This document shows, one piece after another, positions 57,508-64,000 of a stretch of DNA of 64,000 bases (the first letter of the stretch is position 1; each line of letters starts with the position of its first letter). Location of the stretch: positions 172 to 64,171 of the forward strand of contig NZ_JAEQ01000020.1 of NCBI RefSeq assembly GCF_000518985.1, in the 5' to 3' direction. The notes below the pieces were generated by a model. The model was not told the DNA's origin, made no database searches, and saw only the letters and a program-made list of their open reading frames with translations. Origin of the DNA: Chelativorans sp. J32. Its GTDB lineage: Bacteria > Pseudomonadota > Alphaproteobacteria > Rhizobiales > Rhizobiaceae. A program made the position numbers and the translations under genes.

Positions 57508-57540
57508 ATTGCATGCTTGTGGGAAGGTATTGTATGCAAT
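57508..57540. promoter_or_regulatory. Candidate operator of the mat operon
   Basis: TTGCAT (57509-57514) and ATGCAA (57534-57539) form a dyad with a 19-base spacer. The right arm is itself a near-palindrome, ATTGTATGCAAT. It ends six bases before the ribosome-binding site of matA. A similar dyad with an 18-base spacer stands at 63858-63887, consistent with a FadR-type GntR operator. Confidence 0.6.
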
Positions 57541-57558: not shown

Positions 57559-58938
57559 ATGTGGTCGCAGACTAGGCTTGGCAGGCGACTGGAAATCTCT
57601 TCATTCGTCGCGGATTTCATCCAGGCGCTGACGGATCGGCGCTGGCCTTCCCTTGGAGGCACTGGCGGTCTGACGCCCAAGGAAGCGGATCTGGGGCAGA
57701 TCTGCGAGCTGTTGTTGTCGCGACGGGGAGAGGTCTCGGGGGTCGCCCTCGCCAGCCTGCTCCTGGATGCATATGCCAAAGCTACGCCCGAAAGCCAAAA
57801 TGCCTTCCTCAGGACACTGCTTGACGGCTTCGGTGTCGATCGGGATGCACTTGCGCAGGCGATCACAACCTATGCCGCGACCGGCGAGGCGAGCGCCGCC
57901 GGCAATCTGCATAAAGCGGCAGAGCCGCGGCGCCAGGAGCTCTTCCGTCGCCTCAACATGGCGCCAGGAGGGACGCGCGCCCTGGTCCGTATGCGTGAGC
58001 ATGTACTGTCGCGTCTGGTCCAGGAACCGGAGCTCGCCGCGGTCGACGATGATTTCGTCCATCTCTTCTCCTCCTGGTTCAACAGGGGATTCCTCACGCT
58101 GGAGGCCATCGACTGGCACACGCCTGCCAACATACTGGAAAAGATCATCCGATATGAGGCGGTGCATGAGATCACCGACTGGGACGAACTGCGCCGCCGC
58201 GTGGAGCCTCGGGATCGGCGCTGCTTCGCCTTCTTCCATCCGCAGATGCCGGACGAGCCGCTGATCTTTGTCGAGGTGGCTCTTGCAGGGCAGATCATCA
58301 CCTCGATGGATGCCGTCCTGGATGTGGGACGGGAGTCGATCGCTGCCGAGGACGCAAGCACCGCGGTCTTCTACTCCATCTCCAACTGCCAGAACGGGCT
58401 GAAGGGCATCTCCTTCGGCAATCTTCTCATCAAACAAGTGGTGACGGACCTGAAGCAGGAGCTTCCCAATCTCAGAACCTTTGTCACCCTTTCCCCCGTG
58501 CCGGGCTTTGCAGACTGGCTGCGCGAAGAGCTGGGCCAAAACTCGTTGCGGATGATCAGCATCGAGGACAGGGAGGTCCTGACGGGGAAAGATCTCCTCA
58601 AGCACGAGGAGCACGATGCCGAGGTCCGCCGGGCCTTGTTGCGCGCGGCCGCGGCCTATCTGCTATCGGCCAAGCGAGGGGATGGCCGCCCCCTGGACCC
58701 GGTTGCCCGATTCCATCTCGGCAATGGCGCCCGGCTCGAACGTATCAATTTGCTGGCGGACAAGTCTGCGCGGGCGATGCGGCAGTCCTTCGGCGTGATG
58801 GTCAACTATCTCTACGAGCCGAGAATGATCGAGGAAAATCACGAGCGTTTTGCGGAAAACGGAGAGGTGGTCGCCTCGCCGGAAACCCGCAAGCTCTTTC
58901 GACCGGACAGGACAGAATCAGAGAAGGCAATTATGTAA
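57559..58938 (+). CDS. matA: Malonyl-CoA decarboxylase
   Basis: About 459 residues, normal for bacterial MatA. It converts malonyl-CoA to acetyl-CoA and CO2. The N-terminal helical domain is followed by the catalytic acetyltransferase-like domain, with FFHPQMPDEPLIFVEVAL, VFYSISNCQNGLKG (Ser273) and VARFHLGNGARLERIN (His386), which sit in the segments expected to hold the catalytic serine and histidine. The C-terminus MVNYLYEPRMIEENHERF is also typical. GGAGG at 57546-57550 places the start at the ATG at 57559. Its stop shares one base with the start of matB. The operator upstream and the GntR gene at 63117 suggest malonate induction. Confidence 0.92.
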   Translation: MWSQTRLGRRLEISSFVADFIQALTDRRWPSLGGTGGLTPKEADLGQICELLLSRRGEVSGVALASLLLDAYAKATPESQNAFLRTLLDGFGVDRDALAQAITTYAATGEASAAGNLHKAAEPRRQELFRRLNMAPGGTRALVRMREHVLSRLVQEPELAAVDDDFVHLFSSWFNRGFLTLEAIDWHTPANILEKIIRYEAVHEITDWDELRRRVEPRDRRCFAFFHPQMPDEPLIFVEVALAGQIITSMDAVLDVGRESIAAEDASTAVFYSISNCQNGLKGISFGNLLIKQVVTDLKQELPNLRTFVTLSPVPGFADWLREELGQNSLRMISIEDREVLTGKDLLKHEEHDAEVRRALLRAAAAYLLSAKRGDGRPLDPVARFHLGNGARLERINLLADKSARAMRQSFGVMVNYLYEPRMIEENHERFAENGEVVASPETRKLFRPDRTESEKAIM

Positions 58939-60467
58939 TGACGAACAACCTGTTCTCGCACCTGATCGCGCATGCCGGGCTTGACCGGACCGCGCTGATT
59001 GTTCCGGCGCACGGCCAGGTGAGCTACCGTGATCTCGATCGGATGTCGGCGCGCTATGCCAATGCCCTGCGCGGGTTAGGCGTTAAGCCGGGAGATCGGG
59101 TGGCGGTACAGGCCGAGAAGTCGCTGGGTGCGGTTCTTCTTTATCTCGGTGTGCTGCGCATGGGGGCGGTCTATTTGCCCCTCAACACGGCCTATACGCC
59201 GGCGGAAACTTCCTATTTCATTGGCGATGCCGAGCCGACTGTTTTCGTATGCGATCCCGCGCGAGAGGCGTCGGCGCGTGATCTCTGCCGTGATGGTCTC
59301 ACGCAAGTGCTCGCCCTGGGCGGAAGCCTCGATGCGCTGGTAGAGAACCAGGAAGATCATTTCGAGACGGTTGCGGTGTCGGACGACGATCTTGCCGCCA
59401 TTCTCTATACATCCGGCACCACAGGACGCTCCAAGGGCGCCATGCTCAGCCATGGCAATCTGCTTTCCAACGTGACCGCGCTGAAGGAGTCTTGGCGTTA
59501 CACGCAGGACGACGTCCTGATCCATGCGCTGCCGATCTTCCATACGCATGGCCTTTTTGTTGCGCTGAACCTCACCTTCTTTTCCCGGGCTTCGGTTATT
59601 CTTCTGCCGAAGTTCGATCCGGACGCCGTCATGGATGCGATGTCCTCCGCGACGGTCCTGATGGGCGTTCCGACCTTCTATACGCGCCTGCTTTCCCATC
59701 CTGGTCTTACAGCAGAAGCATGCCGCCATATGCGCGTCTTCATCTCCGGATCCGCTCCGCTGCGGGCGGAGACACATGAAGAATGGAAAGAGCGGACCGG
59801 CCACGCCATTCTCGAACGCTACGGGATGACCGAGACGAACATGAATACGTCGAACCCGTATGACGAGGAGCGGCGTGCAGGCACGGTAGGCTTTCCGCTC
59901 CCCGGCGTGAGTGCGCGCATCGTCCATCCGCAGACCAACACCCCTCTGCCCACCGATGAAATCGGCATGATCCAGGTGAAGGGTCCGAACGTTTTCCAGG
60001 GGTACTGGCGGATGCCGGAGAAGACAGCTTCGGAGTTTACCGCCGACGGCTACTTCATCACTGGCGACCTGGGCAAGGTCGACGGGGACGGATACATCCA
60101 TATCATCGGACGGCAGAAGGATCTGGTGATCACCGGAGGCTATAATGTCTATCCGAAGGAGATCGAGGTAGAGATCGATGCCATCCCGGGCGTAGCCGAG
60201 AGCGCCGTTTTCGGCGTGGAGGACGCGGACATGGGAGAACGGGTTGTCGCGGCGATCGTCCGCGATGGCAGCTGCGACGTGCAGGCTGCAGATATCGAAA
60301 ATCATCTCGGCAGCCGGCTTGCCCGATATAAACAGCCGCGGGAGATCGTTTTCCTTGCGGAATTGCCGCGGAACACGATGGGCAAAGTGCAGAAGGAAGT
60401 CCTGCGGCGGAACCATGCTGCTGCGGCGAACCAGCGGAGCACCAGGGAGGTGGAGAATGCTCGTTGA
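58938..60467 (+). CDS. matB: Malonyl-CoA synthetase (malonate-CoA ligase)
   Basis: About 509 residues of the AMP-forming ligase family. ILYTSGTTGRSKGAMLSHGNLL is split by the usual P-loop glycines, with MTETNMNTSNPYDEERRAG as the A5 region, typical of MatB. The catalytic lysine is in RNTMGKVQKEVLR near the C-terminus. It converts malonate, and possibly methylmalonate, to the CoA ester that MatA decarboxylates. The assignment rests on the family sequence and the direct overlap with matA (TAATG). Confidence 0.9.
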   Translation: MTNNLFSHLIAHAGLDRTALIVPAHGQVSYRDLDRMSARYANALRGLGVKPGDRVAVQAEKSLGAVLLYLGVLRMGAVYLPLNTAYTPAETSYFIGDAEPTVFVCDPAREASARDLCRDGLTQVLALGGSLDALVENQEDHFETVAVSDDDLAAILYTSGTTGRSKGAMLSHGNLLSNVTALKESWRYTQDDVLIHALPIFHTHGLFVALNLTFFSRASVILLPKFDPDAVMDAMSSATVLMGVPTFYTRLLSHPGLTAEACRHMRVFISGSAPLRAETHEEWKERTGHAILERYGMTETNMNTSNPYDEERRAGTVGFPLPGVSARIVHPQTNTPLPTDEIGMIQVKGPNVFQGYWRMPEKTASEFTADGYFITGDLGKVDGDGYIHIIGRQKDLVITGGYNVYPKEIEVEIDAIPGVAESAVFGVEDADMGERVVAAIVRDGSCDVQAADIENHLGSRLARYKQPREIVFLAELPRNTMGKVQKEVLRRNHAAAANQRSTREVENAR

Positions 60468-62130
60468 AAAAGAACGGACGATGGCTGACACCGGAATAAG
60501 TGTCCTTGATCCGCGTGGATACCCTCCGGTGGTCACCGGCAGAACACCGGCGCCCCGGCTGGGCACGCTAGACGGCAAGACCATCTATCTTGTTGACAGC
60601 CGCTTTGACGACTCGATCGAGCTGTTGAAGCAGATCGAGATCTGGTTTCGCGAATATATGCCCAGCGTAAAAACCAAGATCGTCCAGCTCGCGAGCACCT
60701 ACGCGAAGGATGATCCCGCGCTTTGGGAGGAGATCCGGGCCAATGGGCATGGTGCGATCCTCGGCGTCGGGCATTGCAGCACCTGCGCGCCGGCCGTGTG
60801 CACCCACGCGATCACGCTTGAGACCAAGTATGGGGTCCCGACGGTCGCGGTCCATACAGACAAGTTCGAGAAAGTCGTGAAATCGGTTGCCCGCATGGGT
60901 GGCCTGCCGCAACTGCCTCTGGTTTTCGTGCCGCAGCCGGTAATGGGCAAGACGCCGGCCGAGCTGCGCGAATACGTGTTGGGAGCCGATCCGGTCCGTG
61001 GTGAGCCGGTGATGCGCGAGATTGTGGAGGCTTTGACCCAGGGGCTCGCGCAAACTTCGTCCGCTGATCTGGTTGTCGCGAAGGCCCCGACAGAGCGCCT
61101 TCTTCCGGCGGACACGGAAGAGAACCTGCACGAACTCTTTCTCCGCAACAACTGGACGGACAAACTGCCGATCGTTCTTCCCACGGAAGAGCGGGTGGCT
61201 CAGATGCTCAAGGGTACGAGCCGGGCCCCTGATGAAGTGGTCGGCAAGATGCAGCCGACCGCCAATCGTGGTGCATGGAGCTACACGGTCGAAAAGGTGG
61301 CGGTAAACGCCGTCATGGCTGGCGCCCGGCCGGAATATTTTCCCGTGATCCTCGCTCTTGCCGCCAGCGGCGTGAGCGCGCGAGGGAGCACCTCGAGTTC
61401 TGGTTCGGCGATGGTGGTCGTCAACGGGCCGGTCCGTCATGAGATCGGTATGAATATGGGCATCGGGGCCTTGGGGCCCTACAATCATGCCAACGCCACC
61501 ATTGGCCGCGCTTACGGCCTGCTGTCGCAGAATCTGCAGGGCGGATCCGTGCCGGGCGAAACTTTCATGGGCTCGCTCGGCAACAATTATACCTATAACA
61601 GCATCACCTTCGCGGAAAATGAGGAACGGAGTCCCTGGGAACCGCTGCATGTGCAGAAGGGGTTCGATGCCGATGCAAGCACCGTCAGCATCTTCTTCGG
61701 CTGCCGCTCGACCACGTTCAGCCTGGGCTTGCGGGAGCAGCACTGGCGCGAACATGTGCGCGACATGCTGCTTGGCACCGACGCGGTAACGGCTCCCGTG
61801 TTGCTGCTCGATCCGATCACCGCGCGCCAGTTCGTGGAACGGGGTGGTTTCACCAAAAAGGCCGATCTCATTTCCTGGATCCATGAGACCGCCATGATGC
61901 CGGCAAGCCGCTACTGGGATCTACAACTGATCCAGAACTACGTCTATCCACGCGCCACATTCGGTGAGGAGCCGATGGCGAGCGAATTGAAGAAGGGGCC
62001 AGACGAGCTGGTCCATATCTTCCGTCTGCCGGAGATCAATGCTGTCGTGGTCGGCGGGGAGACGAATGGCTATTGGCAGATCATGGGTGCGCGATATCAG
62101 GCCACGATCTCCATTGACGAGTGGCGCTAG
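60457..62130 (+). CDS. UGSC-like redox protein (Cys form) fused to a large uncharacterised domain
   Basis: About 557 residues. The N-terminal 200 residues resemble the UGSC (seleno)protein family: LDGKTIYLVDSRFDDSIELL opens it and GVGHCSTCAPAVCTH occupies the site that in UGSC members reads GxGD-U-G-S-C. Here Sec is replaced by Cys107, with Cys110 and Cys115 nearby; all are TGC codons. PTVAVHTDKFEKVVKSV follows as in the family. The remaining 350 residues (AWSYTVEKVAVNAVMAG, MGIGALGPYNHANATIG, GETFMGSLGNNYTYNS) are not recognised. GGAGG at 60446-60450 favours ATG at 60457, overlapping matB by 11 bases. The next gene encodes a thioredoxin-reductase-like protein, a natural electron donor. Substrate unknown. 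Confidence 0.75.
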   Translation: MLVEKERTMADTGISVLDPRGYPPVVTGRTPAPRLGTLDGKTIYLVDSRFDDSIELLKQIEIWFREYMPSVKTKIVQLASTYAKDDPALWEEIRANGHGAILGVGHCSTCAPAVCTHAITLETKYGVPTVAVHTDKFEKVVKSVARMGGLPQLPLVFVPQPVMGKTPAELREYVLGADPVRGEPVMREIVEALTQGLAQTSSADLVVAKAPTERLLPADTEENLHELFLRNNWTDKLPIVLPTEERVAQMLKGTSRAPDEVVGKMQPTANRGAWSYTVEKVAVNAVMAGARPEYFPVILALAASGVSARGSTSSSGSAMVVVNGPVRHEIGMNMGIGALGPYNHANATIGRAYGLLSQNLQGGSVPGETFMGSLGNNYTYNSITFAENEERSPWEPLHVQKGFDADASTVSIFFGCRSTTFSLGLREQHWREHVRDMLLGTDAVTAPVLLLDPITARQFVERGGFTKKADLISWIHETAMMPASRYWDLQLIQNYVYPRATFGEEPMASELKKGPDELVHIFRLPEINAVVVGGETNGYWQIMGARYQATISIDEWR

Positions 62131-62141
62131 GCGGACCGGAC

Positions 62142-63083
62142 ATGGATGAGTTCGACATCGTTGTAATCGGCGCCGGGGTCGCGGGATTGAGCGCCGCGGC
62201 TACTGCGGCGCGCCGCGGCGCGCGTGTCGCCGTCGTGGAAAAGCTCGGCGCAGGCGGTCAGATCATGACCGTCGAGCGGATCGAGAACTTTCCGGGGGCG
62301 GTGGAACCCGTTGCCGGATTCGAGCTAGGGCCCGCGATGCAGGAACAGGCCGAGCAGGCAGGGGCGGAATTCCTGCTCGATGCGGTGGAGGAGGTTCTTC
62401 TCGACGGACCTGCCCGGGTGTTGAGATGCTCGCAAGGGGAAATCACCGCGCGGGCGCTGATCGTCGCGGCAGGCTCGAGCCGCCGCGCGCTGGGTGTGCC
62501 CGGCGAGGAACGATTGGAAGGCAGGGGGGTCTCTCACTGCGCCTCCTGCGACGGTCCGCTTCACCGCGGCAAAACCGTTGCGGTCATCGGAGGCGGCGAT
62601 TCGGCTTTTGACGAGGCGCTTATTCTGGCCACCCATGCGGGGCAGGTCCTTCTCATTCATAGAGGCGAGAGCTTCCGCGCTGCCAAGCCGACGGTGGAGA
62701 AGGTGTCCGCGCTTGAAAATGTCAGGATCTGCCTGAACTCCACGGTCGAGGAAATCATCGGCGACAATGTGGTCCAGGGACTTTTGGTGCGAGACCGTAT
62801 CACGGGCGCTTCCCGTCGGGAGAGCGTCGACGGCGTATTCGTCTATGTCGGGCTTGAGCCGAATACCGATTTTCTCAAGGGAAAGCTCGATCTGGCGGAG
62901 GATGGGAGGGTTCTAACCGACCGCTTCATGCAAACTTCGCTTCCGGGGGTGTTCGCGGCTGGTGATATCCGTCACGCATCGGTCGCGCTGTTGGCCGAAG
63001 CCGCGGGGGATGGCGCGACTGCCGCCATTGCCGCTCTCAATTATCTCAGTGAAGGCTTTGAAAAGGCACGTGCGGTGGAATAA
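62142..63083 (+). CDS. Thioredoxin-reductase-like FAD/NAD(P) disulphide oxidoreductase
   Basis: About 313 residues, normal for low-molecular-weight thioredoxin reductase. VVIGAGVAGLSAA binds FAD, the redox cysteines are Cys133 and Cys136 in SHCASCDGPLH, and VAVIGGGDSAFDEALIL is the NAD(P) motif. The C-terminal FVYVGLEPNTDFLKG and GVFAAGDIRH are standard. The loop that holds the two NADPH-phosphate arginines in E. coli TrxB (HRRD) reads LIHRGESFRA here, so cofactor preference may be altered. It follows the UGSC-like gene by 11 bases, so it is probably that protein's dedicated reductase. A GTG at 62121 is an unlikely earlier start. Confidence 0.88.
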   Translation: MDEFDIVVIGAGVAGLSAAATAARRGARVAVVEKLGAGGQIMTVERIENFPGAVEPVAGFELGPAMQEQAEQAGAEFLLDAVEEVLLDGPARVLRCSQGEITARALIVAAGSSRRALGVPGEERLEGRGVSHCASCDGPLHRGKTVAVIGGGDSAFDEALILATHAGQVLLIHRGESFRAAKPTVEKVSALENVRICLNSTVEEIIGDNVVQGLLVRDRITGASRRESVDGVFVYVGLEPNTDFLKGKLDLAEDGRVLTDRFMQTSLPGVFAAGDIRHASVALLAEAAGDGATAAIAALNYLSEGFEKARAVE

Positions 63084-63116
63084 TCGGCTGGTTGGAGCAA
63101 GATCGAGCCTAAGATC

Positions 63117-63815
63117 ATGAATGAAAAGCCCTTGAAGCAAAGCCGTGCGGCCCTTCTGCGTGATGCGATCGAGGAAGACATCGTAACAGGCATCTACAAG
63201 CCAGGGGAACGTCTCGACGAGACCACCTTGGCCGCCCGCTATCAGGTTTCGCGCACGCCGATCCGGGAAGCCTTGAAGCAGCTGAGTGCGACCGGTGTCG
63301 TGAAGATCCTGCCGCACCGCGGCGCCTTCGTGCACGAGATTTCGCTTCCCGAAATGATCGGTATGTTCGAGGTGATGGCGGAACTGGAGGGTATGTGCGC
63401 ACGGCTGGCTGCTCGGCGCATCAGCACCCGGCAACTGGGGGAGATGGCTACCGCGCAGGAAGAATGCATGGCGGCGCTCAGGAATGGGAAGGCGGATGAC
63501 TATTATTACGCCAATGAGCGTTTTCACCTGCTTCTCTATGCTGCCAGCGGCAACAGCTTTCTGGCGGCCACCGCTACGACGCTGCACAAGCGCCTGAAGC
63601 CCTACCGGCGGCTCCAGCTGCGCGTTCCCGGACGTCTCGAACGATCAGCCGCCGAGCATGACGACGTAATCGCCGCCCTTCGAGCGCGGGATTCGGCAAA
63701 GGCGGAGGAGCTCATCGAAAAGCATGTGCTCATACAGGGCGACATGTTCAGCGATTTCCTGTCCGCCGTCAGCTCGCTTCCGTTCGGGGATGAAAAGATG
63801 GCGGCAGAGGCCTGA
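63117..63815 (+). CDS. GntR-family regulator, FadR/FCD subfamily, MatR-like by context
   Basis: About 232 residues. The winged helix reads LRDAIEEDIVTGIYKPGERL and YQVSRTPIREALKQLSATG. The FCD domain contains metal or ligand histidines in ERFHLLLYAAS, AEHDDVIAALRARD and IEKHVLIQGD. FCD proteins bind small carboxylates; malonate is the obvious candidate since the gene ends the matAB unit. Matching dyads before matA and before the exported-protein gene at 63926 are its likely targets. The protein is like MatR of rhizobia in family and location, but identity is not proven. Confidence 0.87.
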   Translation: MNEKPLKQSRAALLRDAIEEDIVTGIYKPGERLDETTLAARYQVSRTPIREALKQLSATGVVKILPHRGAFVHEISLPEMIGMFEVMAELEGMCARLAARRISTRQLGEMATAQEECMAALRNGKADDYYYANERFHLLLYAASGNSFLAATATTLHKRLKPYRRLQLRVPGRLERSAAEHDDVIAALRARDSAKAEELIEKHVLIQGDMFSDFLSAVSSLPFGDEKMAAEA

Positions 63816-63857
63816 TGCTGAGCCGAGGTACCACAGAAAATGCAAAGTAAGGTCGTC

Positions 63858-63887
63858 TTGCATACAATTGCTATGTAATGTATGCAA
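63858..63887. promoter_or_regulatory. Candidate operator upstream of the exported-protein gene
   Basis: TTGCATACA (63858-63866) and TGTATGCAA (63879-63887) form a perfect nine-base inverted repeat with a 12-base spacer. TGTATGCAAT is shared exactly with the site at 57531-57540 before matA. It is 38 bases before the start at 63926. Confidence 0.68.
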
Positions 63888-63925
63888 TTCAGAGCAGGTG
63901 CAGAACATTTTCTTGGGAGGAAGAA

Positions 63926-64000
63926 ATGTTGAAGAATGTCCTGGCAGCGGCAGCTTTTGCCGCATTGCTTCCGGCCACAGCGCTGGCGCAATCGGAGGAT
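63926..64000 (+). CDS. Exported protein, partial; probable periplasmic solute receptor
   Basis: Only 25 codons are inside the window. The ATG at 63926 follows GGGAGGAAGAA and the protein begins MLKNVLAAAAFAALL, then PATALAQSED, a clear signal peptide with an AxA cleavage site. The shared operator with matA and the rhizobial matPQM-matAB arrangement suggest a malonate receptor of the TRAP type, by inference. The rest is beyond base 64000. Confidence 0.6.
   Translation, partial: MLKNVLAAAAFAALLPATALAQSED

Follow-up and report, generated by a model that had tools for sequence, protein, structure and literature searches.

Why should the gene of a UGSC-family protein stand among genes for malonate degradation, and which reaction could its product carry out there? 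The question is raised by a 64,000-nucleotide stretch of the Chelativorans sp. J32 genome (contig NZ_JAEQ01000020.1, positions 172 to 64,171; contig C12 of genome G000 at an offset of 171 in our numbering), hereafter the window. Here, the Cys form of a UGSC-family fusion protein (557 aa, 60457-62130, described by profile matches and an AlphaFold2 model) is encoded between matB and the gene of a thioredoxin reductase (TrxR)-like flavoprotein; all genes of the locus lie on the plus strand. The initial annotation of this DNA had listed matA, matB, the fusion gene, the TrxR-like gene and a GntR/FCD regulator gene, all of which were found at the positions it gave, and had suggested a thiol-dependent reductive step before malonate, an idea that gains support by analogy. 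The halogenated, nitro or sulphur-bearing malonate or precursor that it had named as a possible substrate is a guess. Working from gene content, homologies, the selenocysteine (Sec)/Cys column, linkages and an operator motif as read in the sequence, we tentatively propose, at close to an even chance of being right, that the locus works as a catabolic unit complete in itself: a malonate derivative would be imported, a GrdB-like, TrxR-recycled enzyme would reductively remove its substituent, and the malonate so formed would go to MatB and MatA.

The UGSC domain and its kinship with GrdB

The UGSC domain of the fusion protein (60502-60978) was matched by PF24696 with 88 bits against a gathering cut-off of 25 (E=1e-24, residues 7-165 counted from codon 60484); the NCBIfam equivalog NF041046 gave 57.5 bits and its cut-off of 125 was not reached. 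Our calculations on the protein began at codon 60484 (548 aa), and nine is to be added to such counts for full-length numbering. PF24696 was also matched at E<=1 by all 71 aligned rows, i.e., 70 of the 80 named related loci and the window. The motif GVGHCSTC occupies residues 103-110 and includes Cys107 and Cys110, with the C-S-T-C active-site codons at 60775-60786. With three split or cut matches (L104, L112 and L123) excluded from the tables of codons and distances, the Cys107 column held an in-frame TGA at 55 of 77 loci, Cys at 16, another residue at 5 and a gap at 1. These results bear out the assignment of the protein as a Cys-type UGSC member. Genes resembling selA, selB or selD were found in five loci (L067, L077, L079, L080 and L118; query proteins named by eye, and the selD-like match of L079 at 34% only), and tRNA-Sec was present at 3 of the 21 loci scanned.

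We then placed the protein in a tree of 69 rows rooted at its midpoint (65 loci of more than 500 residues and without other stops, the window, and genomes G299, G300 and G302; L049 was left out as the twin of G300). The window protein falls into a 15-member clade whose members all carry Cys (support 100/100). The nearest rows outside this clade are of the Sec type and come from Chloroflexota, Rokuibacteriota, Myxococcota and one betaproteobacterium, the join being not starred (89/99). Since the all-Cys clade stands beside Sec-type rows, the Cys form is probably derived.

The link to a known enzyme came from profile-profile comparison. UGSC against GrdB gave hhalign 96.5% (E=8.9e-10), and the alignment sets the active Cys of UGSC on the active Sec of GrdB. 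In the same comparison 21 control clusters reached at most 16.2%, reversed profiles at most 5.1% and TrxR 7.0%; among the control clusters some may be open reading frame artefacts, and one is antisense to UGSC. The GrdB set comprised 14 sequences, from which L159 and L160 (cut), L166 (duplicate) and L153 (wrong frame) had been left out. Judged by these profiles, GrdB, the Sec-bearing subunit of glycine and betaine reductases, has in its active-site half a homologue of the UGSC domain. GrdB and PrdB (PF07355; glycine, sarcosine, betaine and D-proline reductases) are similar to the fusion protein in this half, with U-G-T-C where the latter has C-S-T-C, and also in having the second enzyme part as a neighbouring gene or a fused domain. 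They differ in that UGSC is devoid of the N-terminal half of GrdB and its partner domain is unrelated by profile to GrdE (PF09338); no GrdA, GrdC or GrdD genes were recognised near UGSC. The GrdB-like proteins encoded by two alphaproteobacterial loci (L149 and L150) are short (about 300 aa) and have a C-P-V-C motif. By eye, their genes lie beside a CoA-ligase-like or CoA-transferase-like gene, and the proteins may represent a further branch of the GrdB superfamily within Alphaproteobacteria.

The AlphaFold2 model of residues 10-557 (pLDDT 94.5, pTM 0.93) shows the UGSC domain as an alternating beta-alpha structure with flavodoxin/CheY-like structural neighbours; a flavodoxin-like fold is therefore predicted. 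Trx-like rows were absent from the neighbour list, but the domain might yet have a Trx fold. The fused C-terminal domain (61081-62127, about 349 aa by profile searches and model) lies outside known families. Its approximately 350 residues, called unrecognised in the initial annotation, indeed had no match in Pfam, NCBIfam or PDB sequences, and the domain modelled alone (pLDDT 94.1) gave no convincing structural match. It is nevertheless well conserved, as the polar residues Asp226, Thr234, Asn314, Asn337, Arg342, Glu378 and Glu380 are kept in at least 97% of the 71 rows (Asp226, Asn314, Arg342, Glu378 and Glu380 numbered from codon 60484). In a class-level sample a relative of the fusion or of its parts was present in 28 of 289 genomes, own included. 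UGSC and the C-terminal domain also occur as separate adjoining genes, in 12 pairs from 11 genomes (a list hand-picked from the class-level and genus-level match tables), and the C-terminal-domain gene comes first in 10 of these 12 pairs. Such split and fused occurrence is what would be expected of two parts of one enzyme, like GrdB and GrdE.

Some of the relatives call for a remark of their own. At L069 (3464-5075, minus strand) an intact Sec-type UGSC fusion has beside it a second copy that was matched as two fragments (69% and 72% identical to the window protein); this copy looks either broken or affected by a sequencing error. Three acidobacterial contigs (L086, L090 and L093) each carry three matches to the fusion a short distance apart, suggesting lineage expansion. 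The UGSC gene of L075, labelled as a Klebsiella pneumoniae metagenome-assembled genome (MAG), clusters in the tree with genes of environmental alpha- and gammaproteobacteria, so that the label is probably wrong.

Linkage to thioredoxin reductase and to malonate genes

The TrxR-like flavoprotein encoded directly after the fusion gene (62142-63083) has a CASC centre and scored about 315.5 bits against TIGR01292, its cut-off of 343.45 being not reached. A separate canonical TrxB is encoded in the same genome at C2:122551 (395.4 bits), and the fusion gene thus has, as had been claimed, a TrxR-like gene of its own. The CxxC centre was found in 19 of 19 aligned TrxR-like rows (18 of the 26 loci with such a match, and the window). 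A TrxR-like gene stands near UGSC at 26 of the 80 named loci, and on the same strand within 400 bp at 19 of 77. The distribution is not even: 25 of the 26 linked loci fall inside a 40-row clade of the tree that holds the window protein, and in the all-Cys clade a TrxR-like gene lies near 12 of 15 members.

This distribution bears on what the flavoprotein is for. The fusion protein could be a non-reductive, thiol-dependent lyase or hydrolase whose cysteines TrxR merely keeps reduced in air; selenol and thiol active sites need protection from oxygen, and at 54 of the 80 loci a TrxR-like neighbour is absent. We consider this explanation unlikely, as the frequency of the TrxR-like gene in the all-Cys clade fits a stoichiometric supply of electrons better, and the characterised relatives of GrdB are reductases (PMC10298544).

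The other partners are the malonate genes. The product of matA (57559-58938, 459 aa) has both domains of malonyl-CoA decarboxylase (MCD; PF05292 E=1.1e-102, PF17408 E=3.6e-30) and is the sole MCD match in the genome, and that of matB (58938-60467, 509 aa), a malonyl-CoA synthetase, exceeds the cut-off of the malonyl-CoA synthase subfamily (NF005702, 780 bits against 558). The fusion gene overlaps matB by 11 nt, and a good ribosome-binding sequence, GGGAGGTGGAG, precedes its ATG at 60457. We prefer this start over 60481 because of that sequence and because MLVEKER is kept in G299; G300 has MLAEQER, and the second ATG is not kept.

Among the 80 named loci, matA and matB flank the fusion at three: L049 (a Chelativorans MAG, twin of G300), L065 (Rhizobium sp. 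CF080) and L066 (Microbacterium album, Actinomycetota). The set of matAB, UGSC, TrxR and GntR genes is kept in G299, G300, G302, Rhizobium CF080 and M. album, and within the genus the mat/UGSC set occurs in 4 of 16 genomes, own included. The Rhizobium and Microbacterium hosts are aerobes. In G302 matA and matB are divergent; the link has therefore outlived rearrangement. The matAB-linked members do not form one clade, requiring three changes on the tree, of which at least two are forced by supported branches; gain or loss of the linkage must thus have happened repeatedly. Thus, the survey places UGSC and TrxR together at a third of the loci or so, and with matAB in few lineages; matAB is not a general UGSC partner. 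Elsewhere, an acidobacterial contig carries an MCD gene (L083:6433-7758, minus strand, about 43% identity to matA) between two distant UGSC fusions, which could be chance, and a MetE-like gene was noted by eye in five UGSC loci (L052, L056, L059, L068 and L077).

Importer, regulator and operator

The GntR/FCD (FadR-type) transcriptional regulator is encoded at 63117-63815. Both its GntR helix-turn-helix and its FCD domain were matched in Pfam (PF07729 E=2.6e-30, PF00392 E=4.1e-18), and its nearest NCBIfam, TIGR03338, scored under the cut-off. The module had been drawn as 57559-63815; the genes are there, but this end is too early, since a transporter gene from about 63926 shares the operator described below. 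It is the 5' part of a gene for an ABC-transporter solute-binding protein (SBP; 63926-64000, running past the window), its start being inferred from a signal-peptide-like ATG. Past the window edge the SBP (PF13343/PF13416) is followed by a permease (PF00528), and G299 has an importer ATPase gene too, as does Rhizobium CF080 judging by eye. A similar importer (permease 69%, SBP 48%) lies beside the UGSC gene of L054, a member of Bradyrhizobiaceae without matAB; the importer therefore travels with the UGSC enzyme and not with matAB. At other close relatives (L051, L053, L055, L066 and L085) TctA/TctC-type carrier genes were seen by eye. The matABC/matR malonate operon of rhizobia comprises MatA, MatB and a GntR-type regulator. 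The present locus differs from it by the addition of the UGSC fusion, TrxR and the ABC importer, and among its neighbours we recognised no carrier of the MatC type. The region just beyond the window (L129:10038-19737) is rich in catabolic genes, with benzoylformate decarboxylase-, aldehyde dehydrogenase- and TRAP carrier-like genes noted by eye.

A near-palindromic 12-mer, ATTGTATGCAAT, stands upstream of matA at 57529-57540, and with a weaker copy spotted by eye, ATTGCATGCTTG at 57508-57519, it makes up a putative GntR/FCD operator (57508-57540). Two further copies, CTTGCATACAAT at 63857 and AATGTATGCAAT at 63877, each with one mismatch to ATTGTATGCAAT, precede the transporter gene (63857-63888). 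Apart from 57529, 63857 and 63877, the 64-kb window has no site with up to one mismatch. The whole 4.7 Mb genome has six, of which three belong to the two promoter regions described here (a control with the reversed pattern gave three in total), and the exact 12-mer occurs in it once, before matA. G299 and G300 carry exact ATTGTATGCAAT both before matA and before the transporter gene. Forms with one to three mismatches stand before the mat/UGSC genes of G302, Rhizobium CF080 and M. album, and in the importer upstream regions of G302 and Rhizobium CF080 no form with up to three mismatches was found. The obvious candidate for binding ATTGTATGCAAT is the GntR/FCD protein.

These observations also help to judge the idea that UGSC and TrxR form a redox-defence or regulatory pair, acting on peroxide or disulfides and metabolically unconnected to the malonate operon. 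The selenoprotein families of one survey were mostly thiol oxidoreductases or Trx-like, and UGSC itself was termed there probably thioredoxin-like (PMC2398784). Such a pair would hardly be expected to share its operator with an uptake system, or to stay in a cluster that is kept in two phyla and has survived rearrangement, and the flavodoxin-like model and the large conserved C-terminal domain do not suit it either. We thus regard it as quite improbable.

A putative reductive route to malonate

For the proposed catabolic unit we infer a reaction with the following substrate class, step order and electron path. The ABC importer would take in X-malonate, in which the alpha carbon carries a leaving group X, and the C-terminal domain would bind and polarise this substrate, as the partner in a B-protein-like reaction. 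Cys107 (Sec in most relatives) would attack as a thiolate and accept the carbon or X, and Cys110 would resolve the intermediate, with release of malonate and formation of a Cys107-Cys110 disulfide, which the TrxR-like flavoprotein would reduce with NAD(P)H. MatB would convert malonate to malonyl-CoA and MatA would decarboxylate the latter to acetyl-CoA, both transcription units being controlled by the GntR/FCD protein via ATTGTATGCAAT. The substrate may be a halomalonate, a sulphur-bearing malonate, aminomalonate or one of its N-substituted forms. A stabilised carbanion makes malonate well suited to chemistry of this kind.

MatB accepts substituted malonates, and the step order is not fixed by gene order. 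The same reduction might therefore come later: MatB would form X-malonyl-CoA, MatA or another enzyme would decarboxylate it, and the fusion protein would reduce the resulting X-acyl-CoA to acetyl-CoA. It can be added that the short GrdB-like genes of L149 and L150 adjoin genes resembling those of CoA metabolism, and that two-carbon acids are substrates of GrdB-type enzymes (PMC10298544, PMC10838667). However, close relatives of the fusion lack matAB nearby, so there is no general dependence on products of MatB, and we find this order of events rather improbable.

For the proposed direct reduction of X-malonate there are two precedents by analogy. In glycine reductase the selenolate cleaves the C-N bond adjacent to a carboxylate; thioredoxin supplies the electrons and a selenenylsulfide is formed (PMC10298544). 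In Cloacibacillus a GrdB/GrdE-like pair (FarB/FarE) with a transporter gene is induced about 5,000-fold by fluoroacetate, and C-F cleavage has been proposed, the activity being inferred from this induction; the GrdE-like part is without the pyruvoyl cysteines (PMC10838667). FarB/FarE and the present locus have in common a small operon with a transporter, a nucleophile protein of the GrdB kind and, for substrate binding, a partner that lacks the pyruvoyl cysteines. In contrast, FarB and FarE are proper GrdB/GrdE homologues from an anaerobe, are thought to pass on to GrdA/C, and have no malonate genes (PMC10838667).

Several results weigh against our proposal. The GrdB model PF07355 gives no match to the fusion protein at E<=1, and UGSC also scores 61.4% against the GrdE profile (E=7.9e-5, 58 columns), so that part of the likeness to Grd proteins may be shared fold and not a GrdB-only signal. 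The C-terminal domain has no detectable kinship to GrdE (hhalign 0.1%) and no conserved Cys among the aligned rows, hence no pyruvoyl-forming one. The first Cys/Sec is absent in 5 of the 71 aligned rows and the second likewise in 5. Besides the 54 loci without TrxR, 77 of 80 are without a matAB pair (some flanks are short in both counts), so most UGSC members have other partners or other products; close relatives outside matAB loci have aldo/keto reductase, TauD or amidohydrolase neighbours, which indicate no single substrate. As for the precedents, a review argues against the use of thioredoxin by D-proline reductase of the same family (PMC10298544), and FarB is said to be without a CxxC (PMC10838667).

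The module had been thought undescribed, and this holds in part. No paper on this operon was found in the literature covered, which did not extend to subscription papers, but a fusion of UGSC with 'Unknown_1' was noted in Global Ocean Sampling data in 2008 (PMC2398784). The family name (PF24696, NF041046), the Sec motif and the existence of a fusion to a domain of unknown kind have been published (PMC2398784, PMC13188914, PMC9312934, PMC9402790, PMC7539508). The window protein belongs to this family and is likewise a fusion, whose C-terminal domain may correspond to 'Unknown_1', and differs in having Cys for Sec; what is added here is the operon with its TrxR, the modelled fold and the kinship to GrdB. 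UGSC has been reported as one of the major selenoprotein families in marine and other aquatic samples (PMC2398784, PMC9402790), a 2026 review counts it among selenoproteins with largely uncharacterized function (PMC13188914), and the accessible text of this literature gives neither a function nor a relation to GrdB. As far as the literature was covered, what is new comprises the control-backed homology to GrdB, the modelled fold and the linkage to TrxR, together with the locus that joins malonate genes, importer and operator, and the occurrence of the two domains both split and fused.

The operon offers a selenium-free Cys version of the enzyme, a probable electron donor, a predicted product used by two downstream enzymes, an importer and a rare operator motif, and it thereby makes the role of the widespread UGSC family testable. 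If our proposal is true, reductive chemistry of the glycine reductase type would not be limited to anaerobes.

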